Origin: Advenella alkanexedens
GTDB lineage: Bacteria; Pseudomonadota; Gammaproteobacteria; Burkholderiales; Burkholderiaceae_B
NCBI RefSeq assembly: GCF_019132845.1
Contig: NZ_JAHSPR010000001.1
Location: forward strand, 434,001 to 498,000
DNA length: 64,000 bases
Direction: 5' to 3'
The notes under the pieces were generated by a model. It did no database searches and was not told the DNA's origin. It saw only the letters and a program-made list of their open reading frames with translations. A program made the position numbers and the translations under genes. This document shows, one piece after another, positions 14,094 through 55,557 of the stretch (position 1 is its first letter; every line of letters starts with the position of its first letter).

Positions 14094-14522
14094 ATGAGCA
14101 ATCACGATATTCCCAGCGGGTTCCGTTTGTTGAACAGGAACAGCCCTTTTTCAGATTTGACGGGCCCTTATTATGAGCAGGTTGATGAGAATGGCAAACA
14201 TACTGTTTTAGGTATCCGCCTGACTCACGAGCATTTGAATAAGATCGGGGTGGCCCATGGTGGCACGATGATGACGATTGCCGATAATGCTTTCGGTGAT
14301 GCGATCCTGGCCCATTACGACCATCCGGTGTCTTTTGTGACGGTGACGCTGAATAGTGAGTTTATGTCACCGGCCAAAGCCGGCGATTGGGTGGAGGCAC
14401 GGGTCAAGATTCATCGTGCCGGCAAACGGATGATTTTTGCCAGCTGTGCACTCACGGTTGAAGGCAAGAATGTGTTCAACGCCAGCGGCGTGTTTTCGCT
14501 GATTGAAAAGCGCCCAGCTTAA
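14094..14522 (+). CDS. PaaI-family hotdog thioesterase
   Basis: 142 residues. The single hotdog domain carries the PaaI/acyl-CoA thioesterase motif VAHGGTMMTIADNAFGDA, with the conserved HGG and the acidic residue of the central helix. It probably hydrolyses acyl-CoA or aryl-CoA intermediates to free CoA. It is the third gene of the dehydrogenase operon, 23 bp after the small subunit, which suggests a CoA-salvage or overflow role in the same pathway. It is followed by a long repeat region. Confidence 0.85.
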   Translation: MSNHDIPSGFRLLNRNSPFSDLTGPYYEQVDENGKHTVLGIRLTHEHLNKIGVAHGGTMMTIADNAFGDAILAHYDHPVSFVTVTLNSEFMSPAKAGDWVEARVKIHRAGKRMIFASCALTVEGKNVFNASGVFSLIEKRPA

Positions 14523-14781
14523 ACCGCTTACACCCTCGCTCCCACGCGGGAGCGAGATGTGCCCCCCTACACCTGCCCCATGGATTCTTTCCCCTCGTCC
14601 CCACGCTCCGCTCACCCCCTCGTTCCCACGCTCTGCGTGGGAATGCCTATCCCAAAACAGCATCAGCTCACTCTCCCACTCGTTCCCATGCTCCTGCGTG
14701 GGAATGCATACCCAAAAATAGCACCAACCCACTCCTGCCCGGAAATGCATAAAACCAAACTACTGGCAAACAACGTGCGCC

Positions 14782-14847
14782 AAGTACACCCCCCACTTTG
14801 CTCCGACGCCGCTTCGCGCCGAAGTCGCTGCAGTGGGGGGTGTACTT
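14782..14847. repeat. Covarying-arm hairpin element, copy 1
   Basis: Perfect 16-bp arms (AAGTACACCCCCCACT / AGTGGGGGGTGTACTT) enclose a 34-nt core in reverse orientation to copies 2 and 3. Read on the minus strand the core begins GCAGCGACTTCGG, has GCGAAGC in the middle, and ends CGTCGGAGCAA. It differs from the other two cores by one base. Confidence 0.85.
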
Positions 14848-15016
14848 GTCACACTTGCGTTAATTCAGAATTCAGAAGGAAGTTCACCTCAAACTGCGCT
14901 GCACATTCTGCAATGCTGAAGGAGCTCCCACGCAGAGCATGGGAACTGGATCAGGCTTCTGCCACCGCTGAAAAAACCAACCTGTGAACCAGCCTTCTTG
15001 AAACTGACAAAGCGGG

Positions 15017-15082
15017 GATTCACCTTGCAGGTGCAGCGACTTCGGCGCGCAGCGGCGTCGGAGCAAACCTGCAAGGTGAATC
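15017..15082. repeat. Covarying-arm hairpin element, copy 2
   Basis: Perfect 16-bp arms (GATTCACCTTGCAGGT / ACCTGCAAGGTGAATC), unrelated in sequence to those of copy 1, enclose the same 34-nt core in forward orientation. The variable core base is C (GCGCAGC at the apex). It lies 147 bp from the 3' end of the IclR gene. Confidence 0.85.
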
Positions 15083-15228
15083 ACCGCGCTGTTTATTTAG
15101 AAACCTGGCGTTCCCACGCAGGAGCATGGGAACGAGAAACCGTCCAACATTTGGGGGTCACTTCACGGAGCATGGGAACGAGAGGAGTGCCGCACCTGCA
15201 TGGGGACGAGGCCCTGGCTTTAAGCCTC

Positions 15229-16056
15229 CTACACCTGCCCCATGGATTCTTTCAGCCGCTGCACAATTCCCTGCAACCGCGGACGGACTTCTTCAAGTAA
15301 AAAATCGGCAGACAAGCTAAAGGAAGGCCCACCGCAGCTAAGTGCCATGATGGGGTAATTGGGGCCCAAATTCACACCCACCGCAATCGCATTCACGTCT
15401 TTTAACCAATCACCAAAAGAGCACGTGCACCCCAGGCGCTCATAATCCCGCATTGCCTGGTTAATCCCGTCAATAATCGCCTCACTTGACTGCTCATCCA
15501 GCTCTTGCACTCGCTCTATAATCTCGTTACGCTCGGCCAGGCTTGACTCAGCCAGATACGCTCTTCCCATGGAGGACGTGGCAATCGGAATGCGGGCCCC
15601 CACATCAAGACTTAGCGTAAGCGCCGAGCGGCTGCGACAATTTTCTATATACAGCATTGAAAGCCGGTCGCGCGCGCCCAGCGTTACCATCCCCTGGGAA
15701 AAATCAGCCACCTCTTGCATCAGCGGACGCGCCAACTGGCGAATATCCAGCTTGGCCAGCATCCCCACGCCCAATGACAGGGTAGCCATACCCAAACGGT
15801 ATTTTCCACTGGTTTCATCCTGGGTTAAATAACCCAGTTTAATCAAGGTGGAGGTAAGCCGTGAAACCGTTGACTTGGGCAAACCGCAGCGCTGGGCAAT
15901 TTCCTGGTTGCTCAGCACCTTGTTGCCTGAACGGAAACACGCCAGGACTTCAAGACCGCGGGCCAGAGCAGTCACAAAATGACGGTCATCTTTATATTTT
16001 TGTATAACCGAATCAGTCAGGCTTACTGAGCTGTTGGTACGCTTGGATAGTGTCAT
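15229..16056 (-). CDS. IclR-family transcriptional regulator
   Basis: 275 residues. Winged helix-turn-helix at about 28-90 (NQEIAQRCGLPKSTVSRLTSTLIKLGYL) followed by the IclR effector-binding domain (about 100-270, including ARDRLSMLYIENCRS and VGVNLG). It resembles the regulators of PcaU/PobR type. It is divergent from the nitronate monooxygenase operon; the shared 384-bp region contains the palindrome at 16209-16223. It is a candidate regulator of all promoters that carry that palindrome (11.4-25.1 kb), which is an inference from site proximity. Confidence 0.93.
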   Translation of the reverse strand: MTLSKRTNSSVSLTDSVIQKYKDDRHFVTALARGLEVLACFRSGNKVLSNQEIAQRCGLPKSTVSRLTSTLIKLGYLTQDETSGKYRLGMATLSLGVGMLAKLDIRQLARPLMQEVADFSQGMVTLGARDRLSMLYIENCRSRSALTLSLDVGARIPIATSSMGRAYLAESSLAERNEIIERVQELDEQSSEAIIDGINQAMRDYERLGCTCSFGDWLKDVNAIAVGVNLGPNYPIMALSCGGPSFSLSADFLLEEVRPRLQGIVQRLKESMGQV

Positions 16057-16208
16057 GTTCTTTTATTTATAGTCAGCATCTTTTATGAGTTTTCATTTGG
16101 TAATAATTGGCCTTGGCATATATGGCAGGAAAGCCTGAGCCTTCCCCTGTTACCAAGGCTGATCATTTGCCATGAATGCTACCATACCGGATCAATAATG
16201 AAAATATA

Positions 16209-16223
16209 TTTTGCCATGCGGAA
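16209..16223. promoter_or_regulatory. Palindromic operator copy in the IclR / nitronate monooxygenase divergent region
   Basis: TTTTGCCATGCGGAA matches the 11468 palindrome at 12 of 15 positions. It lies about 150 bp before the regulator start and about 220 bp before the nitronate monooxygenase start. The rest of the 16057-16440 gap shows no gene. Confidence 0.5.
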
Positions 16224-16440
16224 TAAAGGGCCTTTACGCTAAAACATTTTACACCCGCCTTCAACTTCATCCCAACCGATTAAGGCATTCACCAAATCTG
16301 ATTAGCACAGGGTAGCGTTACCCGTTAAAATCAACTATTGGAATAGCGTATTGAATCAGGCCAGGTGCCTGGTGAGATAACTTTCCGGCCCAATTCCATA
16401 CCGCATAGCAAAACAACAACTTCATTCAGAGGCATATACA

Positions 16441-17406
16441 ATGGCACACCCTATCGTTGAAAAACTTCACCAGCAAATGACATTACCCGTTATTTGTTCA
16501 CCCATGTTCATCGTTTCAAGCCCCACACTGGTGATTGAGCAGTGTAAAAGCGGTGTTATTGGGTCTATGCCAGCCTTAAATGCCCGCCCTTCCGAGCTGC
16601 TTGATGACTGGCTGGCGCAAATCAGTGAAACCCTTGACGATGTGCGCAGCAAGGAACCCGGTCGCAAAGTGGCACCTTACGCCATCAACCAGATCATTCA
16701 CGCTTCCAATGACCGGCTTGATAACGACATGCAAACCTGCGCCAAACATAAGGTTCCCATGATTATTACCAGCCTGCGCGCGCCCGATGACGTGGTCAAG
16801 CACGTACACGAGTGGGGCGGTTTGGTTTTTCATGACGTAACCACCATTCGCCATGCAGAAAAAGCCCTGGAGGCCGGTGTGGACGGCCTTATCCTGGTGG
16901 CCAGTGGCGCGGGTGGCCATGCCGGCAAACTCAGTCCCTTTGCCATTTTGCCCGAAGTGCGCAAGTTCTTTGATGGCCCCATCGCCCTTTCCGGCTCCAT
17001 TACCAATGGCAGCAGCGTTCTGGCCGCCCGGGCCCTGGGTGCGGACTTTGCCTATATTGGCACACGCTTTATTGCCAGCCATGAAGCCAATGCCGATGAA
17101 CGCTACAAAAAAATGATTGTGGAATCGTCAGCCAAGGATATTTTATACACCCCGTTTTTTACCGGCATTCCCGGCAACTATCTCATCCCCAGCATCGTTG
17201 CATCAGGCCTGAATCCCGAAAGTCTGACCGAAGAAGAAAAACTGGCCACCAACTTTGGTTCTACCCGGGTCAAGCCATGGAAAGATATTTGGGGTGCAGG
17301 CCAGGGGGTCGGCAGTATTGATGCGGTTGAAAGTGCGGCCGACATCGTTAAAAACATGAAGCGGGAATATGACGCTGCCCGTCAGCGCATTATGGCAGAA
17401 CTGTAA
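16441..17406 (+). CDS. Nitronate monooxygenase / 2-nitropropane dioxygenase family
   Basis: 321 residues, a flavin (FMN) TIM-barrel enzyme. Features include VICSPMFIVSSP near the N-terminus, the glycine-rich SGAGGHAGK loop near residue 160, IALSGSITNG, and the phosphate-binding GTRFIASHEA. Members oxidise alkyl nitronates, and some act as enoyl reductases or other flavoenzymes, so the exact substrate is unknown. It is first in a three-gene operon with an enoyl-CoA isomerase-like protein and an acyl-CoA dehydrogenase. This suggests that the nitro or nitronate activity, or an alternative flavin reaction, is linked to acyl-CoA breakdown. Confidence 0.88.
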   Translation: MAHPIVEKLHQQMTLPVICSPMFIVSSPTLVIEQCKSGVIGSMPALNARPSELLDDWLAQISETLDDVRSKEPGRKVAPYAINQIIHASNDRLDNDMQTCAKHKVPMIITSLRAPDDVVKHVHEWGGLVFHDVTTIRHAEKALEAGVDGLILVASGAGGHAGKLSPFAILPEVRKFFDGPIALSGSITNGSSVLAARALGADFAYIGTRFIASHEANADERYKKMIVESSAKDILYTPFFTGIPGNYLIPSIVASGLNPESLTEEEKLATNFGSTRVKPWKDIWGAGQGVGSIDAVESAADIVKNMKREYDAARQRIMAEL

Positions 17407-17461
17407 CTTTTATGCTCATGCCCCTCACACCACTGTCACTCCTACCCCTGGCAAAGAACCC

Positions 17462-18217
17462 ATGACGCAAACTGTTTTACTTTCCGAGCACAATAAAGTG
17501 CTGACGATTACGATTAACCGCCCCGAGCGGCGCAATGCCCTGGATACGGCCACTTATGACGCGCTTACGCAGGCATTTGAATCGACCACCGGACGCAACG
17601 ACTTGCATGCGATTATTCTGCAAGGTGCCCAGCAATACTTTACCGCCGGCAATGACCTGCGTGACTTCCAAAGCAAGCCCAAAGGCGAAAGTGCGGGCCT
17701 GCGTTTTTTAAGGTCCCTGGTTAACACCGATATTCCCGTGATTGCCGCGGTGGAAGGCGCCGCGATTGGCATTGGTGTTACCATGCTAATGCATTGCGAT
17801 TTTATTATTGCCGCCAGCGACACGACTTTCCGGATTCCTTTTGTACCCTTGGGGTTATGCCCCGAAGGCGCTTCCAGTGTACTATTGGCACAGTATGTAG
17901 GCATCCGCAAAGCCAACGAGTGGCTATACCTTGGCCAGCCTTTCACTGCCCAGGAAGCCCTCGAGAGCAACTTCATCAATGAAGTTGTTGCGCCGGGCGA
18001 AACGCTGGATAAAGCAAGTAAAATTGCAAATACCATGGCCGCACAGTCTTTGTTATCATTAAAAACCACCAAGTCCCTGTTGAAAAGGACTTTAACCCCG
18101 TTAATTAACGAATCCCTTGACTGCGAACGTGAAGCCTTTGTCAAGTGCCTTATTTCTGACGAGGCACAGGCGGCATTCCAGCAGTTTTTTACTAAACCAG
18201 AGAAGTTGAAATCATGA
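17462..18217 (+). CDS. Crotonase-family protein, enoyl-CoA isomerase-like
   Basis: 251 residues from ATG 17462 (MTQTVLLSEHNKV); an in-frame extension to 17369 would overlap the upstream gene and has no family similarity. Crotonase fold with oxyanion-hole stretches QYFTAGNDLRDF and AAIGIGVTMLMHCDF. Both hydratase glutamates are missing (T107/M108 and V128 regions). Instead Glu135 in LGLCPEGASS matches the position used by delta3,delta2-enoyl-CoA isomerases. I therefore favour isomerase-like chemistry over hydration, with moderate confidence. It overlaps the next gene by ATGA. Confidence 0.8.
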   Translation: MTQTVLLSEHNKVLTITINRPERRNALDTATYDALTQAFESTTGRNDLHAIILQGAQQYFTAGNDLRDFQSKPKGESAGLRFLRSLVNTDIPVIAAVEGAAIGIGVTMLMHCDFIIAASDTTFRIPFVPLGLCPEGASSVLLAQYVGIRKANEWLYLGQPFTAQEALESNFINEVVAPGETLDKASKIANTMAAQSLLSLKTTKSLLKRTLTPLINESLDCEREAFVKCLISDEAQAAFQQFFTKPEKLKS

Positions 18218-19368
18218 TTAGAGATCAAGAAACCCAGACATTATTAGAGGACAGCCTTCGTCGCTTCATTAACGAAGTACTCGTCCCGGCCGAGGAGCAA
18301 GTCGCGGAAACTGATCAAATCCCCGCAGAAATCATTGAGCAAATGAAAGAGCTGGGCCTTTTTGGCCTGACCTTGCCCGAAGAATACGGCGGTCTGGGTT
18401 TGACGATGGAAGAAGAAGTGCGCATTGGCTTTGAGCTGGGCCAGACTTCTCCCGCTTTCCGTTCTTATATCGGTACCAACAATGGTATCGGCGGTTCGGG
18501 CATTATTATTGATGGTACGCCCGAACAAAAAGAAAAATACCTGCCCCGCATGGCTGCCGGTGAATTGATCGGCTCTTTCGCCCTGACCGAGCCCGAAGCT
18601 GGTTCTGATGCCGGCTCACTGCGTACCACAGCGGTTCGCGATGGTGATTTTTATGTATTGAACGGTACCAAACGCTTTATTACCAACGCCCCCCATGCCG
18701 GTATTTTCACGGTCATGGCACGCACCTCCACCGAGATCAAAGGTGCCGGTGGCATTTCCGCTTTTATCGTGGAAGCCAACACCCCCGGCTTGTCATTAGG
18801 CAAAATCGACAAGAAAATGGGCCAGAAAGGCGCGCACACTTGTGACGTTATTTTTGAAAACTGCCGTATTCCTGCCAGCCAGCTGATTGGTGGCGTGGAA
18901 GGCGTTGGTTTCAAAACCGCGATGAAAGTACTGGATAAGGGTCGTCTGCATATTTCGTCTATCGCAACCGGTGCCGCCAAACGGATGTTGCGTGATGCGC
19001 TGAATTATGCCAAAGAGCGCAAACAGTTTGGTCAGCCTATTGCCAACTTCCAGTTGGTGCAGGGCATGCTGGCAGACAGCAAGGCTGAAATTTATGCAGC
19101 CGAGTGCATGATTCTTGATGCGGCCCGCCGTCGTGACGCCGGTGAAAACGTCTCTGCCCTGGCTTCTTGTGCAAAGTATTTCTCTACCGAGATGTGCTGC
19201 CGCGTGGCCGACCGTGCGGTACAGATTTTTGGTGGCGCGGGTTATGTGTCCGAGTACGGCATTGAGCGTTTCTATCGTGACGTTCGTTTATTCAGATTGT
19301 ATGAAGGTACTTCACAAATCCAGCAAGTTATTATTGCCAAGGATTTGATCAGAAATGATTCCATCTGA
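18214..19368 (+). CDS. Acyl-CoA dehydrogenase (canonical, catalytic Glu present)
   Basis: 384 residues. FAD and substrate motifs FALTEPEAGSDAGSLRT and GTKRFITNAPHAG, and the second signature QIFGGAGYVSEYGIERFYRD, are followed by the catalytic glutamate in LYEGTSQIQQ. It therefore differs from the PimC/PimD-like pair. It begins within the stop of the upstream gene (ATGA overlap at 18214-18217), so the two are translationally coupled. The chain length and substrate class cannot be read from the sequence. Confidence 0.92.
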   Translation: MIRDQETQTLLEDSLRRFINEVLVPAEEQVAETDQIPAEIIEQMKELGLFGLTLPEEYGGLGLTMEEEVRIGFELGQTSPAFRSYIGTNNGIGGSGIIIDGTPEQKEKYLPRMAAGELIGSFALTEPEAGSDAGSLRTTAVRDGDFYVLNGTKRFITNAPHAGIFTVMARTSTEIKGAGGISAFIVEANTPGLSLGKIDKKMGQKGAHTCDVIFENCRIPASQLIGGVEGVGFKTAMKVLDKGRLHISSIATGAAKRMLRDALNYAKERKQFGQPIANFQLVQGMLADSKAEIYAAECMILDAARRRDAGENVSALASCAKYFSTEMCCRVADRAVQIFGGAGYVSEYGIERFYRDVRLFRLYEGTSQIQQVIIAKDLIRNDSI

Positions 19369-19475
19369 TTCTGATCGGATGTATTAACCAGTTTAGATGC
19401 ACTAACAAGTTTAGATGCACCAATCTGATTGAATGCCCTAACCTGTTTTAGATACCCTAACCTGATTAGATGTTG
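19360..19475. repeat. Degenerate short tandem repeat after the acyl-CoA dehydrogenase gene
   Basis: Between the stop codon and about 19475 an 18-19-nt unit recurs about five times with substitutions, for example CAGTTTAGATGCACTAA, CAAGTTTAGATGCACCAA, CTGATTGAATGCCCTAA and CTGTTTTAGATACCCTAA. It may be an eroded array. No coding frame is maintained. Confidence 0.6.
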
Positions 19476-19528
19476 ATGCGCAGTCTGTGACTTCATGTCC
19501 AGACTGCGTTTTTCATTCCCCGCCCATA

Positions 19529-19610
19529 AAGGGGTGGCAAGTGCAGTCCCCTGCAGCGACTTCGGCGCGTAGCGGCGTCGGAGCAAAGGATGCTGCACTT
19601 GCCACACCTT
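19529..19610. repeat. Covarying-arm hairpin element, copy 3
   Basis: Arms of 18 bp with one mismatch (AAGGGGTGGCAAGTGCAG / CTGCACTTGCCACACCTT), a 3x3 internal loop and three more pairs enclose the 34-nt core at 19553-19586. The variable base is T (GCGTAGC). It lies 160 bp after the acyl-CoA dehydrogenase stop. T4 follows, so weak terminator activity is possible. The rest of the 19369-19788 gap contains no gene. Confidence 0.85.
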
Positions 19611-19788
19611 TTGCCTAATTTAGAAAGAAATGCTTGTGCCCGTTTTCGGGTACCTAAAAACAAGGGAGCGCAACAAACCTGGATAATACCAGCCAGTCTT
19701 CAGTTTGCTGCCAATGGATTTTTAACATACAATTGAATAGCAGGAAGCCAAAATATTTTCAGATATCACGAAGAAAAATAAATCCCCA

Positions 19789-20745
19789 TCAAACAATCTG
19801 CAACAACTGGGGCCGCTTATACAGCTGCATCCTGGTAAACGCCACCATCCGCTCAAACAAATCGGGTCTTGCCAGCCGCTTCTGCCACCAGGCCAGCGCC
19901 TTGCCCGGTGATTCATTGCGCCAGGCCACATACAGCGTCTCTATCGGCTTCGGAATACTGACCTCCTTTTCAACCAACAACCGCTGGCGCACCGCTTCTT
20001 CGACATAAGGCGCTGGCAAAAAACCAAACCCCAACCCTGCCATTTGATATTCAAACTTGCTTAACAAATTGGGCACCGTAATACTGGACTGCCCCGACAA
20101 CACCCCGACCGTGCGGGCCGGCAACCTTCGGGCTGAATCCGACACCACAATGGCATGATGTGCCAGTAAATCGGCCTGCGTTAGCGGACGATCCATCTGC
20201 GCAAGTGGATGACTGGGTGACACCACAAAACTAAACGGCATCTGCCCGATCAAATGTGTGTGGTACTCGCCACTTAAAGAGATATTGTCAATCGTAACCC
20301 CAATAAAAATATCGGTTCTGCCATCCTGAAGCGACTCCCAGGTGCCAGACAGCACCTCTTCTGAAACCCGTATACCCGTTTGACTGGTTTCCTGGTGGAA
20401 AGCCTGCAAATCATCCTTCAGACAAAGTGAAGAAAACATAGTATTGACACCAATCCGCAACTCGGTTTCCCACCCACTGGCAACCCTTTTCACCCTGTTT
20501 TCAAGCTCGGCCGCAGCCTGCATCAGCACCCTTCCCTCTTTCAGCAACTCGGCACCCGCCCGGGTCAGGCTGATTTTGGGGCCGTTGCGCACAAACAATT
20601 TAACATCCAGGTTTTCTTCCAATTTCTGTACCGTATAAGAAACAGCAGAAGGGACGCGAAACAATTCCTTGGCAGCACCGGCAAATGAACCGTGCCGGTC
20701 AATTGCATCCAGCAAATTCAAAGCTTCCAGACTGATCTTGAACAT
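19789..20745 (-). CDS. LysR-family transcriptional regulator
   Basis: 318 residues. N-terminal winged HTH (residues 1-60: ALNLLDAIDRHGSFAGAAKE followed by AVSYTVQKLEENL) and a periplasmic-binding-protein-like effector domain (about 95-300). It is divergent from a pirin and a nitroreductase gene, a common arrangement in which the LysR protein controls both. Its upstream region carries a ten-copy CCGTTGA heptamer starting 40 bp before the ATG, so its expression may vary with repeat number. Confidence 0.93.
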   Translation of the reverse strand: MFKISLEALNLLDAIDRHGSFAGAAKELFRVPSAVSYTVQKLEENLDVKLFVRNGPKISLTRAGAELLKEGRVLMQAAAELENRVKRVASGWETELRIGVNTMFSSLCLKDDLQAFHQETSQTGIRVSEEVLSGTWESLQDGRTDIFIGVTIDNISLSGEYHTHLIGQMPFSFVVSPSHPLAQMDRPLTQADLLAHHAIVVSDSARRLPARTVGVLSGQSSITVPNLLSKFEYQMAGLGFGFLPAPYVEEAVRQRLLVEKEVSIPKPIETLYVAWRNESPGKALAWWQKRLARPDLFERMVAFTRMQLYKRPQLLQIV

Positions 20746-20784
20746 GAAAAACCCTTAATCCATTTCGCAACACAGGCCACCAAA

Positions 20785-20856
20785 CCGTTGACCGTTGACC
20801 GTTGACCGTTGACCGTTGACCGTTGACCGTTGACCGTTGACCGTTGACCGTTGACC
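20785..20856. repeat. Heptanucleotide simple sequence repeat (CCGTTGA)10
   Basis: Ten uninterrupted copies of CCGTTGA plus CC span 72 bp in the LysR-pirin divergent region. Perfect identity of all copies points to recent slippage. The tract ends 40 bp from the LysR start and about 155 bp from the pirin start. Confidence 0.97.
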
Positions 20857-20951
20857 AAGTCATTATATTCAAATAATTTGATGATACACCATAAAACTTT
20901 CCGTTTTTCAAACAAAAATAAATAAAGCATAATACCTACATATTGAATTTA

Positions 20952-30992: not shown

Positions 30993-31109
30993 GCAATGTT
31001 TCAATTAGCGGGCATTCACTCCCACGTGGGAGCGAGCACACGATCTTGACGGACTAAACGGGGATCTTTTACTCGTTCCCACGCTCCCGCGTGGTAACGC
31101 ACTTACCGC

Positions 31110-31199
31110 TTAAAACGCATAGCTGACCTTGACACTGGCGCCCACACCCTGGCGTTTGCCTGCGTAGCCATTGGCTTTCAAAGACAGTGACAGGTTATT
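31110..31199 (-). pseudogene. Autotransporter beta-barrel C-terminus remnant
   Basis: Minus-strand frame reading NNLSLSLKANGYAGKRQGV, then GASVKVSYAF and TAA. The pattern GYAGKRxG followed by alternating residues and a terminal Phe is the end of a type V autotransporter barrel. Only the last 29 codons remain, bounded by REP copies on both sides. Confidence 0.75.
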
Positions 31200-31240
31200 C
31201 GTTCCTACGCTCCCGCGTGGTAACGGAAAAGTCTACAGGC

Positions 31241-31278
31241 AAAAAAAACAGGCTCCCACGCGGGAGCGTGGGAGCCTG
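31241..31278 (-). terminator. REP-derived intrinsic terminator of ilvC
   Basis: A REP palindrome (CAGGCTCCCACGC / GCGTGGGAGCCTG, 13 bp, 4-base loop) is followed on the minus strand by TGT8. It is 85 bp after the ilvC stop. Confidence 0.75.
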
Positions 31279-31362
31279 TAGTCTATCTATTTATTCGGTC
31301 TCACGCGCTGCGTGGGAACGAGCTGGCGAGTGGCGCGAGAGTGCGCAACCCGCAAACTAAAA

Positions 31363-35187: not shown

Positions 35188-37512
35188 ATGGATTTACGCG
35201 CTGAAAACATTACCAAATTTCTTTACAGTCCCAGTCTTTTCTATGCCGTGCGCAAGGCAATTGGCGTCCTGTTGCCAGTTATCATCTTCCTGGGGGTTTT
35301 CCAGAAATACAATGAGGGCATGGCGTTTGCGGCCGGTGCTCTTTGCATTGCGCTAATCGATCAGCCCGGTGGCACCAAAAAATCCCGCTTCAATGAAATG
35401 CTGGCCGGACTCATCATGGGCAACCTGGCCGCCTTGATTACCGGCCTGATCAACCCATACCCGCCACTGGTGCTTATTGTCATTTGCGCCCAGGTGTTTT
35501 TCTTTTCCATGTTGTCAGTGTATGGGGTCAGGGGTGGCTTCATCGGCTTTAGCTGCATGCTCATCATGATGCTGACACTCAGCACCCCGCTGACCTCCGA
35601 ACAGGCCCTGAGTCATATCCAATACACCCTCCTGGGTAGTGTCAGCTATTTCCTGTTCAGCATTATCAGCAGCTATATTTTCCGTTTTCGTGAAGAGCGG
35701 CAAACCCTGGCAGATGCCCTGTATGCCACGGCCGACTACATGAAGGCCCGTGCCGACCTGTACGACACGGCCAAAGATCTGGATGACTGCTATCGGCAGC
35801 TCACGCCCAAAATGGTATCCATGACCAACCGTCACCAAACCGCCCGCGACGTCGTGCTCAGGAACCTGCCCGAGGGCAAGTATCGCCATGACCGGCAGCG
35901 CATTATTTTGTGGAATATTTTCATTGACATGATTGCCCTGCTGGACACCCTGGTGGCCACCCAAACCGACTATGTCCGGCTTCGCGAACGCTTCAGGGAC
36001 CACGACATTCTGCTCTTCATGCGCGACACCCTGTTCAAACAAAGCCGCACCCTGAACCGCACGGCTCTTAGCCTGTCCCGTAACCGACCGGTTGATTACC
36101 GCAACAGTGTCAAGGCGGAATTGCGGGCCATTGAGTTTGAAATCGAACAGTTGCGCAACAACGGCCTGCAAAAAGAAGACCCGGAAACCTATGCACTGGC
36201 GGTGCAAATTTTGCGACGCATGCGTAATGCCAACCGTTTCATCAACCGTATTGCCGACAACCTGCGTGAAAACACCCAAATCGAGCCTTTGAATACGCTT
36301 CGTCGCGACCATTCGCTGATCCAGTTTCAAACCAGCCAGGAAATCCGCCTGGATAAACTCCGTCGCAACCTCAACATGGAATCAGCCATTTTCCGTTATG
36401 CCCTGCGCGTCACGCTGGCGGTTTTCCTGGTACTGCTGACCATTAACCTGGCCCCGCTACTGTATTCAGATTCAGCCACCATACGGGCCCTGACCAACCA
36501 TAGTTACTGGATCGTGATCACGATTCTGATTATTATGCGCCCCGGTTTTGCCTTAACCCGCCAACGCACCGAAAAACGGTTAACCGGTACCATTCTGGGC
36601 TGTGCCATTACCCTGCTGCTGTTTTTGCTCACCGACAATGCCGCGATATTGTTTATTATCATGCTACTGGCCATGGTTTTAGGTAACGCTTTTGTCGCCA
36701 CCAACTACCGCCTGGGCTCTACCTACATTACCATTTACGTGCTAATCGGTTTTTATTTCCTGACGCCCAGCGTGCTGTTTATTATTGGCGAACGGGCACT
36801 GGATACCGCCCTTGCCTGCCTGATCGCCTTTGGCTGCAGTTTTGTCTTCCCCTGGTGGGAAAAGCAGCAAATCCTGAAACTGGCCCGCAAAACCATTCAG
36901 GCCAATCACGATTACCTGCAAAACGCCATGCTGTATGCACAATCCAGCCAACAACAGGGGAACCGGGAAAAAGATCCGTCCCCGGCTGATAATATTTTCT
37001 TTTTCAGCACCCAGCTGGCCCGAAAAAACCTGCATAATGCCTACAGCGAATTTGCCGACAGTGTGTCACGCATGCTGAATGAGCCCAAATCCAAACAAAT
37101 TCACATTCGGCCACTTAACAAGCTGCTGGTGCAAAACGATACTGTTGGCAGTGAAATCAATTCACTGATTCCTTACCTGGCCAGCCTGCCCGAAACACCC
37201 CCTAAAATGCAGCAATCGCTGGATTATATTGAAGCCATGCTGGATGAAAACCGTACCGAAGTACCCGATCCGCCCAGCCAGATTGAAACCGACGGTGAAT
37301 ATAGCAACCTGGCCTTCCCGCTAAAACAAATGCAAAAAGCGGTGGAAAACATCCGCAAACAGGCCGTGGAACTGGGTTTGATGCCGGCGATTGAAAAAAG
37401 CCAAAACAAGGAAGCAGATTCACCCGTCCCCACGCAAGAGCATGGGGACAAGCCGGGCATTTCCCTTACCACGCAGGAGCATGGGAACGAGGCCGTGAAG
37501 CAGACGCTCTAG
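35188..37512 (+). CDS. FUSC-family (YccS/AaeB-like) membrane protein with REP-encoded tail
   Basis: 774 residues. Two blocks of membrane helices (about 20-165 and 400-550) with soluble segments after each, the FUSC / aromatic-acid-exporter fold (YGVRGGFIGFSCMLIMML; SYWIVITILIIMRPGFALTRQR; VFPWWEKQ). It probably exports aromatic acids or related anions. The ordinary sequence ends around GLMPAIEKSQNKEA. The remaining 25 or so residues (with PVPTQEHGDK and TTQEHGNEA) are translated from two REP palindromes, and the stop touches a third. Some relatives should therefore end about 25 residues earlier. Confidence 0.88.
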   Translation: MDLRAENITKFLYSPSLFYAVRKAIGVLLPVIIFLGVFQKYNEGMAFAAGALCIALIDQPGGTKKSRFNEMLAGLIMGNLAALITGLINPYPPLVLIVICAQVFFFSMLSVYGVRGGFIGFSCMLIMMLTLSTPLTSEQALSHIQYTLLGSVSYFLFSIISSYIFRFREERQTLADALYATADYMKARADLYDTAKDLDDCYRQLTPKMVSMTNRHQTARDVVLRNLPEGKYRHDRQRIILWNIFIDMIALLDTLVATQTDYVRLRERFRDHDILLFMRDTLFKQSRTLNRTALSLSRNRPVDYRNSVKAELRAIEFEIEQLRNNGLQKEDPETYALAVQILRRMRNANRFINRIADNLRENTQIEPLNTLRRDHSLIQFQTSQEIRLDKLRRNLNMESAIFRYALRVTLAVFLVLLTINLAPLLYSDSATIRALTNHSYWIVITILIIMRPGFALTRQRTEKRLTGTILGCAITLLLFLLTDNAAILFIIMLLAMVLGNAFVATNYRLGSTYITIYVLIGFYFLTPSVLFIIGERALDTALACLIAFGCSFVFPWWEKQQILKLARKTIQANHDYLQNAMLYAQSSQQQGNREKDPSPADNIFFFSTQLARKNLHNAYSEFADSVSRMLNEPKSKQIHIRPLNKLLVQNDTVGSEINSLIPYLASLPETPPKMQQSLDYIEAMLDENRTEVPDPPSQIETDGEYSNLAFPLKQMQKAVENIRKQAVELGLMPAIEKSQNKEADSPVPTQEHGDKPGISLTTQEHGNEAVKQTL

Positions 37513-37535
37513 CTCCCATGCTCCTGCGTGGGAGC
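37426..37535. repeat. REP cluster 5, two copies inside the FUSC reading frame
   Basis: Copies at 37426-37449 and 37466-37488 are in frame within the FUSC gene, and a third at 37512-37535 begins on its stop codon. Confidence 0.9.
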
Positions 37536-37548
37536 GCACCGCGCCGAC

Positions 37549-39699: not shown

Positions 39700-39770
39700 G
39701 ATATGCAAAACTTATTCCGCTCTTACATGCCTTTTCAGCATCAACTTTAACCAAGGATATTACAGTCCCA

Positions 39771-39935
39771 TTCCCACGCGGAGCATTTTACGTTCCCGTT
39801 CCCACGTGGAGTCTTCCCGTTCCCACGCAGGAGCATGGGAACGAGCAGGGGCAGGATTTTCCCGTTCCCACGCGGGAGCATGGGAACGAGGGCAGCAACA
39901 TTACGTTTCTCGTCCCCACGCTCCTGCGTGGGGAC
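39771..39935. repeat. REP cluster 6 downstream of serS
   Basis: Full copies at 39819-39842, 39864-39887 and 39912-39935 and half copies at about 39771 and 39799, ending 6 bp from the serS stop. Confidence 0.9.
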
Positions 39936-39941
39936 GCACAT

Positions 39942-41309
<1,368 letters not shown>

Positions 41310-41440: not shown

Positions 41441-41550
41441 TTCCCCTCTGTAAAGGGGTGGAAGTGCAATACCAAACTGTTCGCATTACCGTGACTCAGA
41501 ATTCCCCTCTGTGGAGGGGTGGCAGGCGAAGCCTGACGGGGTGGTTAACG
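41441..41550. repeat. CCACCCCG/GGGGTGG repeat, copies upstream of serS
   Basis: A partial copy (TTCCCCTCTGTAAAGGGGTGG, 41441-41461) and a full one (41501-41550: TTCCCCTCTGTGGAGGGG, then TGGCAGGCGAAGCCTGACGG, then GGTGGTTAACG). A REP copy follows at 41577-41600. Nothing else is seen in 41289-41613. Confidence 0.8.
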
Positions 41551-41576
41551 AATACCTCTAAATGCAGACTACAGGC

Positions 41577-46457: not shown

Positions 46458-48111
<1,654 letters not shown>

Positions 48112-48145
48112 GTGATGTGTTGTCATGCGGGAGTGAACACAAGAG

Positions 48146-48369
48146 GTTCCCACGCGGGAGCGTGGGAACCAGAAACCAGAAACTCGTTCCCATTTACTCG
48201 TTCCCATGCTCCGCGTGGGAATGCATAAACCGCGCTGAATTTGTACTCGTTCCCATGCTCCTGCGTGGGAATGCATAACAGGTTTTCGTCAACCACCCCG
48301 TCAGGCTTCGCCTGACACCCCTCCGCAGAGGGGAATTTGCGTACTCGTTCCCATGCTCCGCGTGGGAAC
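48146..48369. repeat. REP cluster 7 downstream of the Smr gene
   Basis: Copies at 48146-48169, 48200-48221, 48249-48271 and 48347-48369, mostly followed by GCATAA. A CCACCCCG-type repeat (48288-48337) sits among them. Confidence 0.9.
48288..48337. repeat. CCACCCCG/GGGGTGG repeat inside REP cluster 7
   Basis: CCACCCCGTCAGGCTTCGCC followed by TGACACCCCTCCGCAGAGG and GGAATT, the reverse orientation of the 41501-41550 copy. Confidence 0.8.
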
Positions 48370-48392
48370 GCATAAACCGTGCTGAAATTAAT

Positions 48393-49626: not shown

Positions 49627-49688
49627 AAAGTAATCGGTAACCGATGAAAAGTAAGATATTTGAAAATGCAGTAGACAATCGCGCTTTT

Positions 49689-50082
49689 GTTCCCAAGCAG
49701 GAGCATGGAAACAAGCAATATACGGTGTTGAAAACACAGTACGCAATTTTGTCACAAATACAAAGAAAGGAATTTGCGAAGAACATAGCATCTACTTCTA
49801 CGAATTATAAAGCAAAGATTAACTTTTTCTTCTTCCCATGCTCCCGCACAGGAATGCATACCCTCATTTGCCATAACAAAATAATTTTAAGTTATGTAAA
49901 ATCTGCTAGTCTACGGATTAACAATCCTTTGTTCCCACGCGGGAGCATGGAAACAAGAGACACGAGGGGTTCCCACGCAGGAGCGAGGGAACCAGAACGA
50001 ACGAAACACAACGGGCTCCCACGCTAGAGCATGGGAACCAGAATTTGGAACCACTCTCGTTCCCACGCTCCTGCGTGGGAAC
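49689..50082. repeat. REP cluster 8 between trhO and metY
   Basis: Copies at 49689-49712, 49931-49954, 49969-49992, 50015-50038 and 50059-50082 and a half copy near 49837. Two end in ATGGAAAC, so they have lost symmetry. No gene is seen in 49627-50116. Confidence 0.88.
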
Positions 50083-50116
50083 GCATATTTTGCAATTTTT
50101 ATCCCCCGGAGGAAGC

Positions 50117-51394
50117 ATGAAGTTAGAGACACTGGCGATTCACGCCGGCTATAAACCCGAACCCACCACCAAAGCCGTGGCAGTGCCTATTTACCAAACC
50201 ACTTCCTACGCGTTTGACAACACCCGGCACGGGGCTGATTTGTTTGACCTGAAAGTGGCTGGCAACATTTACACCCGCATCATGAACCCCACCAATGCGG
50301 TACTTGAAGAGCGTGTGGCAGCCCTGGAAGGCGGGATTGCCTCACTCGTGGTGGCCTCGGGCATGGCAGCCATTACCTACGCCATTCAAACCATCGCCGG
50401 TGCCGGTGACAACATTGTTTCAGTCAGCACCCTGTATGGTGGCACCTACAACCTGTTCGCCCATTCATTCCCGCGCCAGGGCATTGAAGTGCGCATGGCA
50501 CCGCATAACGACATTGCCGCCCTTGAAGCGCTGATTGACGACAACACCAAGGCTGTCTTCTGCGAATCGATTGGCAACCCGGCCGGCAATATTATTGACA
50601 TCCAGGCCCTGGCCGATGCCGCCCACCGCCATGGCGTACCGCTGATTGTTGACAACACCGTGGCCTCGCCCGCGCTGTGCCGCCCCTTTGAACACGGTGC
50701 CGATATTGTGGTGCATTCGCTCACCAAATACATTGGCGGCCATGGCACCACCATTGCCGGTGCGATTGTAGATTCAGGCAAATTCCCCTGGGCCGAACAC
50801 AAAGAACGTTTTGCCATTCTGAATGAACCCGACCCGGCTTACCACGGCGTGGTCTACACCGACGCTTTTGGCCCCGCCGCATTTATTGGCCGCTGCCGTG
50901 TTGGCCCGCTGCGCAACACCGGCGCCGCCCTGGCCCCCCTAAGCGCTTTCCTGATTATCCAAGGCATTGAAACCCTGTCGCTGCGCATGGAGCGCCATTG
51001 TGAAAACACCCTGAAAGTGGCCCAGCACCTGCAAAACCACCCACAAGTGGCATGGGTGAAATACGCCGGGCTGTCCGACCACCCCGAACACGCGTTGGCA
51101 CAAAAATACATGGGCGGAAAACCTTCAGGCATCCTGACATTTGGCATTAAAGGCGGCAGCGAAAGCGGCGCCCGCTTCATTGACGCCCTGCAACTGATTA
51201 CCCGACTGGTTAATATTGGCGATGCCAAATCCCTGGCCTGCCACCCCGCCAGCACCACCCACCGCCAGCTGAACGAAGAAGAACTGGCCACCGCAGGGGT
51301 TAGTGCCGACATGATCAGGCTGTCTATTGGCATTGAACACATCGACGACATCATTGCCGACCTGGACCAGGCACTGGAAGCCAGCAAGGCGTAA
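50117..51394 (+). CDS. metY: O-acetylhomoserine sulfhydrylase
   Basis: PLP enzyme that makes homocysteine from O-acetylhomoserine and sulfide. 425 residues from ATG 50117 with CGGAGGA upstream; the frame to 50045 is translated REP. PLP-binding lysine in HSLTKYIGGHG, and LYGGTYNLFAHSFPRQGIEV and HPASTTHRQLNEEE near the end are typical of MetY rather than MetB/MetC. Confidence 0.95.
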   Translation: MKLETLAIHAGYKPEPTTKAVAVPIYQTTSYAFDNTRHGADLFDLKVAGNIYTRIMNPTNAVLEERVAALEGGIASLVVASGMAAITYAIQTIAGAGDNIVSVSTLYGGTYNLFAHSFPRQGIEVRMAPHNDIAALEALIDDNTKAVFCESIGNPAGNIIDIQALADAAHRHGVPLIVDNTVASPALCRPFEHGADIVVHSLTKYIGGHGTTIAGAIVDSGKFPWAEHKERFAILNEPDPAYHGVVYTDAFGPAAFIGRCRVGPLRNTGAALAPLSAFLIIQGIETLSLRMERHCENTLKVAQHLQNHPQVAWVKYAGLSDHPEHALAQKYMGGKPSGILTFGIKGGSESGARFIDALQLITRLVNIGDAKSLACHPASTTHRQLNEEELATAGVSADMIRLSIGIEHIDDIIADLDQALEASKA

Positions 51395-51423
51395 TGCCTG
51401 CGTTATCATATAGAACAGGAGTG

Positions 51424-51666
51424 GTTCCCACGCGGGAGCATGGGAACCAGAAACAACTCGTTCCCGCGCCAGAACATCCTCTGACTCGTTGCATACCAAC
51501 TGAAGCGGTTCCCACGCTGGAGCATGGGAACCAGAATGCGGGACACGACCCGTGCTCATGCAAAGCAACAACTCGTTCCAGTGCGAAACAGCGACTCATC
51601 AACTCGTTCCCACGCTCTGAACTGCCCCCCCAAAATGTCAACTCGTTCCCACGCTCTGCGTGGGAA
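51424..51666. repeat. REP cluster 9 between metY and RAYT
   Basis: Copies at 51424-51447, 51508-51531 and 51645-51666 and a half copy near 51605. The last one ends 14 bp from the RAYT stop codon. Confidence 0.9.
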
Positions 51667-51679
51667 TGCATACCACCCC

Positions 51680-52210
51680 CTACCATTCTGTACAAATATC
51701 CAACAACCCAGGCAAGCCGGCATACTGCCGGGCACTGGAATATCTCCAGTGCGTTACCTCATCTACATAACCCCTTTTAACCGGGTTTTGATGAATATAA
51801 TCAATTTTCTGGCGCATGATTTTTTCGCCCTGAATCAACTCAGGATGCACCCCTTCCTGCCAAAACTGATAACTGCGATCATTTTTATGCGCTTTTTTAT
51901 AAAACGCCAGCTGATCCAGAATTTGCCAGGCATTATGATCTGCAAGATACTTAATCAGGTTTTTGGCAGTCCATGATTTCAAACGTGCAATATCACGATC
52001 CAGTGCATTGCTTTGCAAAACAAAATGACAGTGATTTTCCAAAACAACCCACGCATAAATACTCAACCCCTCTTTGTGTAAAAAACGCAGGGAATCAAGC
52101 AGAATATTCACGGTGTCGGGGCGAGTAAAGACAGGGATCCAGTGCAATACCGTCAAGGTAACAAAATGCGGTTGTTGCGGTTCAGTTATTTTGTAGCGGC
52201 TTCTACCCAT
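51680..52210 (-). CDS. REP-associated tyrosine transposase (RAYT, Y1/HUH family)
   Basis: 176 residues. HUH motif His60-x-His62 in VVLENHCHFVLQ and the single catalytic Tyr138 in KIDYIHQNPVKRGYV, both diagnostic of RAYTs (TnpA-REP). Shape: MGRSRYKITEPQQPHFVTLT start and a C-terminal YSSARQYAGLPG. It is a single-strand DNA endonuclease that recognises REP hairpins. It is flanked by a REP copy at each end (51645-51666; degenerate 52227-52251) and by dozens of others in the window, so it is the likely source of the REP family. The reading frame looks intact. Confidence 0.95.
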   Translation of the reverse strand: MGRSRYKITEPQQPHFVTLTVLHWIPVFTRPDTVNILLDSLRFLHKEGLSIYAWVVLENHCHFVLQSNALDRDIARLKSWTAKNLIKYLADHNAWQILDQLAFYKKAHKNDRSYQFWQEGVHPELIQGEKIMRQKIDYIHQNPVKRGYVDEVTHWRYSSARQYAGLPGLLDICTEW

Positions 52211-52226
52211 TATTGAAATCCATATG

Positions 52227-52467
52227 CCACCCCACGCAGGAGCCTGGGGATGAGACTTTTAATTTCTGATCATATTTTATTTGGGTATTTGAAAGGGTCT
52301 TGTCGTGACGCTTTTATCTTATGCAATCGTCAAAAGATTCAATATTAGAATGCATACAGGCATATGCAGAACAGATGCGGTTCCCACGCAGGAGCATGGG
52401 AACCAGAAGGTGTAAAGCCTGAGTTTCCATGCAGAACAGGGGCGGTTCCCACGCGGGAGCGTGGGAA
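52227..52467. repeat. REP cluster 10 upstream of RAYT
   Basis: Degenerate copy 52227-52251, then 52380-52403 and 52444-52467. The last ends 15 bp before the DJ-1 gene end. The 52211-52481 gap has no gene; a 32-nt segment at 52300-52331 recurs at 55251-55282. Confidence 0.85.
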
Positions 52468-52481
52468 CCAGAGGCCCTCGG

Positions 52482-53961: not shown

Positions 53962-54017
53962 GGCATGTCTTCCAGAATGGTTGGGCAATGTTTGATTTTA
54001 ACGCCAAAACCGGTTTT

Positions 54018-54097
54018 GTTCCCACGCTGGAGCATGGGAACAAGTAAGAAGACAGGCATGGGCGGGATATCTCGTTCCCACGCTCCTGCGTGGTAAC
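54018..54097. repeat. REP cluster 11
   Basis: Copies at 54018-54041 and 54074-54097, with a further single copy at 54843-54866 after higA. Confidence 0.87.
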
Positions 54098-54256
54098 GCC
54101 TATCTTTCTGCAGGAACCAGATACTAACAATAGACAAATTTACCGCTTACGACCACAGGGCGTTCGCAACTGGCATACAGTGAGTTCAAGACAACCATAC
54201 AGTTAAAAACTGCATGCCACTTCAATTGAATCTAGCAACGATACACGATACAATAT

Positions 54257-54535
54257 ATGATATTAGGATTCCGGCATAAAGGACTTGAGGCGTTCTATAA
54301 AACCAGCTCGACAAAAGGCATACAAGCCGTCCATGCAGCAAAACTAAGACGCATTCTTGGTGCAATGGACGTAGCCGAAAAGCCAGAAGACCTCAAATTG
54401 CCTTCATTTAATCTACACCCACTAAAAGGCAATTTAAAGAATTACTGGTCAATATCGGTTAATGGCAATTGGCGCGTTATTTTTCGCTTTGCCGGTATAC
54501 ATATTGAGCTGATTGACTATCTGGACTATCACTAA
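54257..54535 (+). CDS. higB: HigB toxin (RelE/ParE superfamily)
   Basis: 92 residues: FRHKGLEAFYKTSSTKGIQA at the start and FNLHPLKGNLKNYWSISVNG followed by NWRVIFRF at the end, the classical HigB (killer protein) pattern. It cleaves mRNA on the ribosome. The ATG at 54257 agrees with the family start, yet no Shine-Dalgarno is visible and a TACAAT box lies a few bases upstream, so translation may be leaderless. HigA follows after 12 bp. Toxin before antitoxin is the normal order for higBA. Confidence 0.93.
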   Translation: MILGFRHKGLEAFYKTSSTKGIQAVHAAKLRRILGAMDVAEKPEDLKLPSFNLHPLKGNLKNYWSISVNGNWRVIFRFAGIHIELIDYLDYH

Positions 54536-54547
54536 AAGAGACACAAA

Positions 54548-54835
54548 ATGATGAAAAACCCTCCGCATCCAGGCGAGTTGCTTCGTGAAGATGTCATTAT
54601 TGAACTGGGGCTGTCTGTCACTGAAACGGCAGAACGGCTTGGCATGTCGCGTGTTGCCCTGTCACGCGTGCTAAATGGTAAAGCGGGCATCAGTGCGGAT
54701 TTGGCGATCAGGCTTGAACAAGCCGGCGTCAGTACCGCCAAGGCATGGTTGGCAATGCAAACCAATTATGACCTGGCTCAGGCCCTTAAACGCCCCCAAC
54801 CTACTGTCCGCGCTTTAGTGGTCGAACATACCTGA
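54548..54835 (+). CDS. higA: HigA antitoxin (XRE-type HTH)
   Basis: 95 residues: NPPHPGELLREDVIIELGLS followed by a helix-turn-helix (VTETAERLGMSRVALSRVLNGKAGI) and SAKAWLAMQTNYDLAQA-like end. It neutralises HigB and represses the operon. Two ATG codons are adjacent at 54548 and 54551. Confidence 0.94.
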   Translation: MMKNPPHPGELLREDVIIELGLSVTETAERLGMSRVALSRVLNGKAGISADLAIRLEQAGVSTAKAWLAMQTNYDLAQALKRPQPTVRALVVEHT

Positions 54836-54880
54836 GATATGCGTTCCCATGCTCCCGCGTGGAAACGACTTTATTTAGTG

Positions 54881-55220
54881 TTACCGATGTGACGCTAATA
54901 TTTGTTTGCCCAGCGTAGTCAGGCGGTATTTTTGTGTTGGGCTACGCGGCGAATCCGGTTGGGTCATTTCAATCAAACCAAGCTCTAAAGCTGGCTGCAA
55001 ATAGGTATCCCTAAAATTAACTCTATCTTTTAACTCCAGCGCAAGCATTAACTCAGCTCGATTCATTTCAGCGTCACATATCAACAGCAGAGACTTTACT
55101 TGATGGGTTACTTGATGGGTTGATTGTTCGGTTACTTATTCGGTTACTTCTGAAATCGACCTTTTCTTTTCTAAAAAACCAGTATGTATCGGCAAACGAA
55201 TTAAATTAAAACATAAGACT
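54881..55220 (-). pseudogene. 3' remnant of a Fic- or AAA_4-type ATP-binding protein gene
   Basis: On the minus strand the C-terminal winged-helix domain RAELMLALELKDRVNFRDTY, LQPALELGLIEMTQP and SPTQKYRLTTLGKQIL is intact. It is preceded by VTEQSTHQVTHQVK, the VTEQ-type repeats found between the catalytic part and this domain in AlbA_2/AAA_4 and Fic proteins. A TAA at 55136-55138 interrupts the repeats, and upstream frame remains (SEVTE, LIRLPIHTGFLEKKRS) until a TGA near 55221. The rest of the gene is missing. It lies within REP-rich DNA. Confidence 0.72.
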
Positions 55221-55323
55221 CACAGAACACCTGACATTTTATCCTCGTTATTGTTGTGACGTTTTTGTCTTATTCTATCATCTGAATATGGGAACTAAGG
55301 GGCTATTACTTGAATCCGTATGC

Positions 55324-55414
55324 GTTTCCCACGCGGAGCATGGGAACGAGACTGAAGTTTTATCGACTTTGTACTTCAGCTTTTTTATTGATTCCCACGC
55401 GGGAGCATGGGAAC
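55324..55414. repeat. REP cluster 12, the last in the window
   Basis: Copies at about 55324-55347 and 55391-55414 and a degenerate one near 55441, between the pseudogene remnant and the CaiB gene. No REP copies follow to the end of the window. Confidence 0.85.
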
Positions 55415-55557
55415 TAGCCATCATCCAGTTTCCATACTCACCTCGTTGCCACGCTCCGTGAAGTAACTCCAAAACGTTGAATGGGTGTTCAACTTTTTGG
55501 GGGTCAGTTCAGAGCGTGGGAATGAGGAAGGTATTGCCTCGCTACCCGACGGGGTAC

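Follow-up and report, generated by a model that had tools for sequence, protein, structure and literature searches.

Three copies of a hairpin lie in a 64,000-nt stretch of the Advenella alkanexedens genome (contig NZ_JAHSPR010000001.1, positions 434,001 to 498,000 of the forward strand; the whole stretch is referred to here as the window), and the question raised by this locus is why their tips should be almost identical when they are borne on stems that pair well and differ in sequence from copy to copy. Comparison with related genomes showed that the 36-nt apical motif, or core, changes little among orthologous and dispersed copies, and that a stem of approximately 18 bp must pair and is nearly free in sequence. 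At three sites, orthologues carry the tip in opposite orientations with respect to the flanks. The Advenella units carry a T-run on their native 3′ side and strongly prefer gaps between convergent genes, the build of a terminator or 3′-end hairpin. The parts of the three window copies are as follows.

14797..14832, + strand: core (apical motif) of copy 1, 36 nt; orthologues in the same orientation in A. faeciporci (G002 C35) and in a metagenome-assembled genome, MAG (G004 C143)
14781..14796, + strand: left arm of copy 1, 16 bp, pairing perfectly with 14833-14848
14833..14848, + strand: right arm of copy 1
15032..15067, - strand: core of copy 2
15017..15031, - strand: low-coordinate-side arm of copy 2
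15068..15082, - strand: high-coordinate-side arm of copy 2
19552..19587, - strand: core of copy 3; opposite in orientation to its orthologues in A. faeciporci and A. mandrilli, same orientation in the MAG
19534..19551, - strand: arm of copy 3, its pairing with 19588-19605 interrupted
19588..19605, - strand: arm of copy 3

On its own strand the core reads TTTGCTCCGACGCCGCTNCGCGCCGAAGTCGCTGCA (36 nt). An earlier note on this DNA had described a shared 34-nt core; near-identity of the three copies was confirmed, although over 36 nt, with 35 of 36 positions the same. The sole variable position, at the centre of the triloop, has T, G and A on the core strand, and the CGC-GNA-GCG apex that the note had given around this base is present on the strand opposite the core strand. 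A 32-nt core pattern matched three times in the window and not once in 100 shuffles. The arms had been described as long and perfectly or nearly perfectly paired, and this holds for copies 1 and 2, in which uninterrupted arms of 16 bp and 15 bp adjoin the core; these are the two longest at any window position with a 36-nt spacer, the third best being 11. The folding energy of copy 1 is -39.7 kcal/mol, shuffled sequences averaging -20.3 (z -6.6). In copy 3 the pairing falls short of that description, with two pairs, a mismatched stretch and then approximately 13 pairs.

Copies in Advenella and pairing of the arms

When 61 genomes were searched with the core pattern, allowing up to 3 mismatches, matches were found in four, all of one genus, and a reversed control pattern gave no match in the same genomes. 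The four carriers are the window genome (G000; 2.99 Mb, 20 contigs) with 8 copies and one truncated copy, A. faeciporci (G002) with 9, the MAG, assigned to Alcaligenaceae (G004), with 13 and A. mandrilli (G005) with 10. The search of this genome and its relatives that the earlier note had proposed therefore produced 40 copies, termed type A, in 4 of 10 Advenella genomes. A covariance model built from the 36 distinct copies (R1) and run over 250 genomes of the taxonomic family recovered these carriers with all 40 copies and gave two further, weak matches, and an exact-pattern scan of public genomes returned 22 stretches, all from A. faeciporci, A. mandrilli or one Alcaligenaceae MAG. In the six remaining Advenella genomes, of 4.3-4.9 Mb, genome-wide core-pattern and R1 searches found no copy, and stretches fetched around the orthologues of window genes in these larger genomes contained no match.

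Over the 40 copies the tip is near-invariant except at the triloop middle base (G in 19, T in 14 and A in 7) and at one apical pair that alternates between G-C and C-G. At 70% identity the 18-bp arms divide into 12 groups, and 652 of the 720 arm positions are paired, 639 of them as Watson-Crick pairs and 13 as G.U, the remainder comprising 32 A.C and 36 other combinations. Many copies with unpaired arms, or arms conserved in sequence, would according to the earlier note have marked the design as chance; in the family the two arms of a copy generally pair, and the arms belong to 12 different groups. When the 36 distinct copies were scored on the named structure, 92.9% of cells paired compared with 67.6% in shuffles and 28-49% in slid controls. 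Changes on both sides were present in 20 of 28 pairs, and the covariation score was 0.591 versus 0.138 in shuffles. These values support a fixed apex within compensated arms, which was the central proposal of the earlier note; covariation in excess of shuffled and slid controls is also a mark of structured RNA families of the Rfam type.

Orthologous sites and inversion of the tip

Comparison of flanks defined nine orthologous groups (O1-O9); copy 3 in the window belongs to O4. Differences summed over 21 pairwise comparisons amount to 37 in 756 sites for the core (0.049), 174 in 755 for the arms (0.23) and 1276 in 3403 for the flanks (0.375), figures that are to be read with the reservations that the comparisons are non-independent and that flank divergence is inflated by inserted repeats. 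Copies at most of these sites retain similar arms. Among 198 pair positions in 11 orthologous comparisons, 28 had changed on both sides and were still paired and 2 had changed on one side and were still paired; pairing was lost in at least one copy at 23 positions changed on one side and at 7 changed on both. At O2 and O3 the MAG copies occupy the same places in the same orientation with largely different arms, 7 of 18 pairs being unchanged and 8 changed on both sides and paired. The triloop middle base is common to all compared members in six of the nine groups, which argues against rapid exchange of tips among copies. It differs within O4 and O8, and in the G004 member of O6, where the arms differ too.

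Species differ in the orientation of the core relative to its flanks at three of the nine sites (O4, O5 and O6). When the core was turned in silico, alignment scores rose by 28 to 37 for six comparisons of these sites and fell by 28 to 38 for six comparisons of non-inverted groups. O5 and O6 are collinear on both flanks, and at O4 the G000 and G004 assemblies share one orientation and the G002 and G005 assemblies the other. A site-specific recombinase acting on the arms is an unlikely cause, since the arms differ among the three inverted sites.

Replication template switching is described, in the relevant parts of two reports, as homogenizing the arms of inverted repeats and inverting their spacers (PMC8604942) and as inverting RNA loops, in bacteria as elsewhere (PMC8794818). 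The Advenella hairpins resemble the yeast coding inverted repeats and ribosomal RNA hairpins treated there in both arm homogenization and inversion of the spacer or loop. They differ in scale, the inversions described for yeast spacers changing 2 to 5 bp (PMC8604942) and the inverted ribosomal RNA loops being mostly of 4 nt and up to 7-8 nt (PMC8794818), whereas here a conserved 36-nt tip is turned; inversion also recurs within one repeat family, unlike those short cases as far as these parts of the reports describe them. Template switching accounts for the turned tips and could account for part of the pairing, and both the lack of a G.U excess on the core strand and the presence of only 2 one-sided, pairing-keeping changes among 198 positions fit it. 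The earlier note had taken compensated arms with a fixed apex as one sign of selection for structure; pairing need not come from selection alone because the core is inverted at three sites, a mark of template switching.

A second tip and relatives outside Advenella

One weak R1 match with paired arms carried a different tip, GCTCCAACCGCCCTNCGGGCAGAATCGC, designated type B. A pattern search of the 10 Advenella genomes found 8 type B copies in the same four carriers and none in the other six. Their arms differ between copies and are well paired in most, and an alignment of the two types over the core shows few differences. Decayed copies were also observed, one truncated (G000), one with the apex deleted (G004) and one cut within the core (G004).

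A model of both tips (R2) was used to search 399 Burkholderiales genomes, a sample of the order, under strict filters, and matched G000 and three other genomes. Genomes from two other Burkholderiales families contain a very similar tip within other arms. In G477, two inverted copies with one tip and different arms lie between the tandem genes ftsZ and lpxC, 28 of 28 positions being paired in one of them, and a third copy with another triloop base was found in the 400 kb of that contig which were analysed; compared by eye, the G477 and Advenella tips have 27 letters in common and are separated by one substitution and two single-base indels. G299 has one copy, the tip of which matches at approximately 30 of 34 positions, again by eye. 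An R2 match in G047 was not counted as a relative, because it is a full palindrome whose arms may by themselves account for the match. The type A core had no match in plasmids and phages, the G477 and G299 cores had none in plasmids, and viral contigs gave none for three patterns; a phage or plasmid origin was rejected on these grounds.

Gene context and neighbouring repeats

The genes next to the window copies are as follows.

14094..14522, + strand: 4HBT thioesterase family gene; lies upstream of copy 1 and forms a convergent pair with the IclR gene
15229..16056, - strand: IclR-type regulator gene, upstream of copy 2
18214..19368, + strand: acyl-CoA dehydrogenase gene, left of copy 3
19789..20745, - strand: LysR-type gene, right of copy 3

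Neighbours were called with a simple open reading frame caller, by which 36 of the 48 copies (types A and B) were scored and 12 were left without a score. The scored copies comprise 25 in convergent gaps, 7 in tandem sense, 4 in tandem antisense and none in divergent gaps. The background, 464 kb of the same genome with 206 gaps, has 36 convergent, 123 tandem and 47 divergent ones (binomial p 9e-12 and 9e-5, orthologous copies being counted separately). A T-run, defined as at least 4 T within a fixed 6-nt window, is present on the native 3′ side of 28 of 39 Advenella type A copies and on the opposite side of 7 of 39, against a background of 18.6%; four of these copies were oriented via their orthologues. 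Judged by these features the Advenella hairpins are built like intrinsic terminators, and the unit probably also works as one. Ten neighbouring proteins belonged to varied families, with no functional theme in the sample. Between the acyl-CoA dehydrogenase gene and copy 3 lies a further hairpin of terminator-like build, distinct from copy 3 (CGCAGTCTG...CAGACTGCGTTTTT). G005 has neither copy of the thioesterase-IclR gap, and this looks like loss of copies because G000, G002 and G004 hold copies there.

Several other repeats were observed in this DNA. A stretch from the end of the IclR gene (from about 15224), CCTACACCTGCCCCATGGATTCTTTC, recurs just after the thioesterase gene (about 14563-14592) in the window genome, and was not seen repeated in A. 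faeciporci. A second and far commoner palindromic repeat family (GTTCCCACGC..GCATGGGAAC), often clustered and with many copies elsewhere in the genome, occurs in the window at 1322-1651, 14594-15184, 26122, 31013-31320, 37415-37544, 39765-39944, 41566, 48108-48389, 49678-50087, 51386-52473 and 53980-55526. Two near-identical terminator-like hairpins with T-runs lie 78 nt apart at 1490-1528 and 1568-1606, a tandem array of the heptamer ACCGTTG occupies 20770-20860, and a 58-nt inverted repeat pair (41500-41557 and 48280-48337) is 93% complementary. Part of the latter (GGAGGGGTGGCAGGC..GCCTGACGGGGTGG) is also found beside the copy 3 orthologues in G002 and G005. Identity between the window and G004 C143 falls from 91% to 76% between the neighbouring stretches 15230-17390 and 17490-20100, which suggests recombination between lineages.

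Comparison with known elements

The earlier note knew of no named element with this design, and none was found in Rfam or in the open-licence literature, where no work on such an element was seen. Rfam gave two matches for window positions 14300-19900 (E 2 and 3.9), far below gathering scores, and for L204-L206 it gave 13 matches (E up to 1), all under gathering scores and mostly to microRNA hairpin models.

Intrinsic (Rho-independent) terminators share with the Advenella copies a hairpin and T-run at gene 3′ ends; the family differs from them in its conserved apical motif, in a stem of approximately 18 bp plus tip, and in relatives that seemingly lack a T-run. In integron attC sites structure matters more than stem sequence, and the hairpins described here are similar in this respect, although the conserved part is the apex. 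Membership of that class was rejected, the RYYYAAC/GTTRRRY box pair being absent from the stem base in 39 of 39 copies on either strand. Double-hairpin elements share with the family that they are dispersed hairpins of intergenic DNA and seem to spread. The repetitive hairpin-forming elements of sponge mitochondria resemble the family in being dispersed, intergenic and apparently spreading, but the part of that report concerned describes conserved stems and variable loops (PMC2800124), the reverse of what is seen in Advenella.

Repetitive extragenic palindromic (REP) sequences and the related BIME and REPIN are described, in the part of the source that deals with them, as small dispersed palindromes at gene 3′ ends and in convergent gaps, often as inverted pairs (PMC3733652), traits shared here. 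Location at gene 3′ ends and in convergent gaps, a trait of the REP/RAYT system, is found in 25 of 36 scored copies, with none divergent. The Advenella family differs from REP in its fixed tip, free stem sequence and approximately 10 copies per genome. In the GTAG and CGTC super-families of these RAYT-linked elements an unpaired tag stands at one end of the palindrome; within the tested flank GTAG was present in 1 of 39 copies on the core strand and 2 on the other, and CGTC in 0 of 39 on the core strand and 0 on the other. The Y1 transposase domain PF01797 was found once in G000 and three times in G004 (two being fragments), and not in G002 or G005. The REP tags are thus absent from most copies, and a link to the transposase (RAYT) was rejected because PF01797 is absent from two of the four carriers.

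Explanations for the family

The explanation that we favour, and to which we give an even chance as a whole, is that of a dispersed, vertically inherited and occasionally multiplying family of hairpins, defined by structure, approximately 75 nt long and located at gene 3′ ends, the tip being constrained in sequence and the stem in its pairing alone. Template switching between the inverted arms during replication would turn the loop and copy one arm onto the other, supplying the inversions and part of the stem pairing. Since this process leaves upkeep of the tip without an explanation, a reader of the tip is proposed: purifying selection would keep the tip through a trans-acting factor that recognizes it in a single-stranded hairpin, of DNA or RNA, which is the weakest step of the account. 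The part recognized would be the GNA triloop, the CGC/GCG stem that closes it and those unpaired bases that do not vary. New copies may arise by duplication of whole units, because units alike in their arms and outer flanks are found at more than one locus. A broader form of this explanation, which we regard as possible rather than probable, is a new class of structure-defined element recurring in at least three Burkholderiales families, in which only the fixed tip (CGAC..CGC-TNC-GCG..GAAGTCG, GNA on the other strand) would be read by a putative hairpin-reading factor and could stand in either orientation, whereas any pairing sequence would serve as the stem, which template switching would renew.

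A number of observations weigh against the favoured explanation. Inversions number only three, and O4 is collinear on one flank only, the other being rearranged in G000 and G004; the reservations given above on the orthologous comparisons apply here also. No clean pre-insertion site was found, so that mobility is inferred, the two loci searched for empty sites both being in rearranged regions, and no partner protein reading the tip has been identified. Among copies in tandem gaps orientation is only weakly biased (7 to 4), and at copy 3 the acyl-CoA dehydrogenase gene is already provided with a terminator-like hairpin besides the copy itself. Judged by eye only, a clear T-run is missing from the G477 and G299 copies, and because of this and the location of the G477 pair in a tandem gap the terminator trait may be secondary. 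Finally, on the core strand A.C exceeds G.U (32 versus 13 cells, 18 versus 12 events), and folding favours the opposite strand in 37 of 40 copies; the balance leans to the opposite strand, and the two observations speak against core-strand RNA selection as the main cause of the pairing.

This last point bears most directly on a purely RNA explanation, in which selection on transcripts keeps the stem of a 3′ untranslated region or terminator family and an RNA-binding protein or small RNA reads the tip. Such a family would account for the T-run on the native side in 28 of 39 copies, the location at gene 3′ ends, the conserved internal loops and triloop and the compensatory changes in the stem; however, besides the missing G.U excess and the better folding of the opposite strand, the tip is inverted at three sites while the side of the T-run stays put, and the copies in other families have no clear T-run by eye. 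We consider this explanation rather unlikely; either tip reading or a terminator role may be the reason for upkeep of the hairpin. GNA triloops form stable DNA mini-hairpins, and their presence here would suit a REP-like miniature mobile element, the hairpin tip being recognized in single-stranded DNA by an HUH-type or other nuclease and the arms needing only to pair. Copies with similar arms are dispersed over different loci, unrelated genera hold several copies in a patchy distribution, and inverted pairs of copies occur within one gap (the window, G002 C23, G004 C143 and G477), all of which is consistent with this, but the absence of PF01797 from genomes with 9 and 10 copies (G002 and G005), of a GTAG or CGTC tag from the stem base of most copies and of a clean empty site at the loci searched makes it improbable.

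The earlier note had also raised a small cassette that inserts into the loops of palindromes. Arms unrelated between groups would be expected of a 36-nt cassette of this kind, but when the b-arm palindrome (CACCACCGG/CCGGTGGTG), the sole arm type tested, was sought with a loop of 0-30 nt and without the core, it was found in none of 7 genomes. In addition, copies retain similar arms at most orthologous sites, and an outer 5′ block is common to part of the arm groups, so that outer sequence is shared across copies with different arms. This block reached significance (p<0.05) in 6 of the 13 representatives of type A and in 3 of the 7 type B copies and not in d, f and others, and for one of the six significant type A representatives a far control scored equally high, so that the block is only partly supported. 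Insertion of a cassette therefore did not survive these comparisons and we hold it to be very improbable. Ordinary terminators combined with chance or assembly error would share the terminator-like build, but the 36-nt tip is conserved over 40 copies in four assemblies, shuffled windows and the reversed control pattern gave no matches and the O4 inversions agree between independent assemblies, which leaves this explanation with a negligible probability.

Significance

Changes on the two sides of a stem are commonly read as proof of selection on RNA. Here pairing is kept in a repeat family with a tip that flips, which makes the effects of mutation and selection separable in one system, with built-in controls in the form of orthologous sites, decayed tips, two tip types, four carriers and six relatives without the family. 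If a conserved tip is indeed read within a stem of free sequence, this would imply a hairpin-reading factor that has not been described. The Advenella hairpins thus offer a natural record of DNA hairpin evolution and a hint at a partner that reads the tip.

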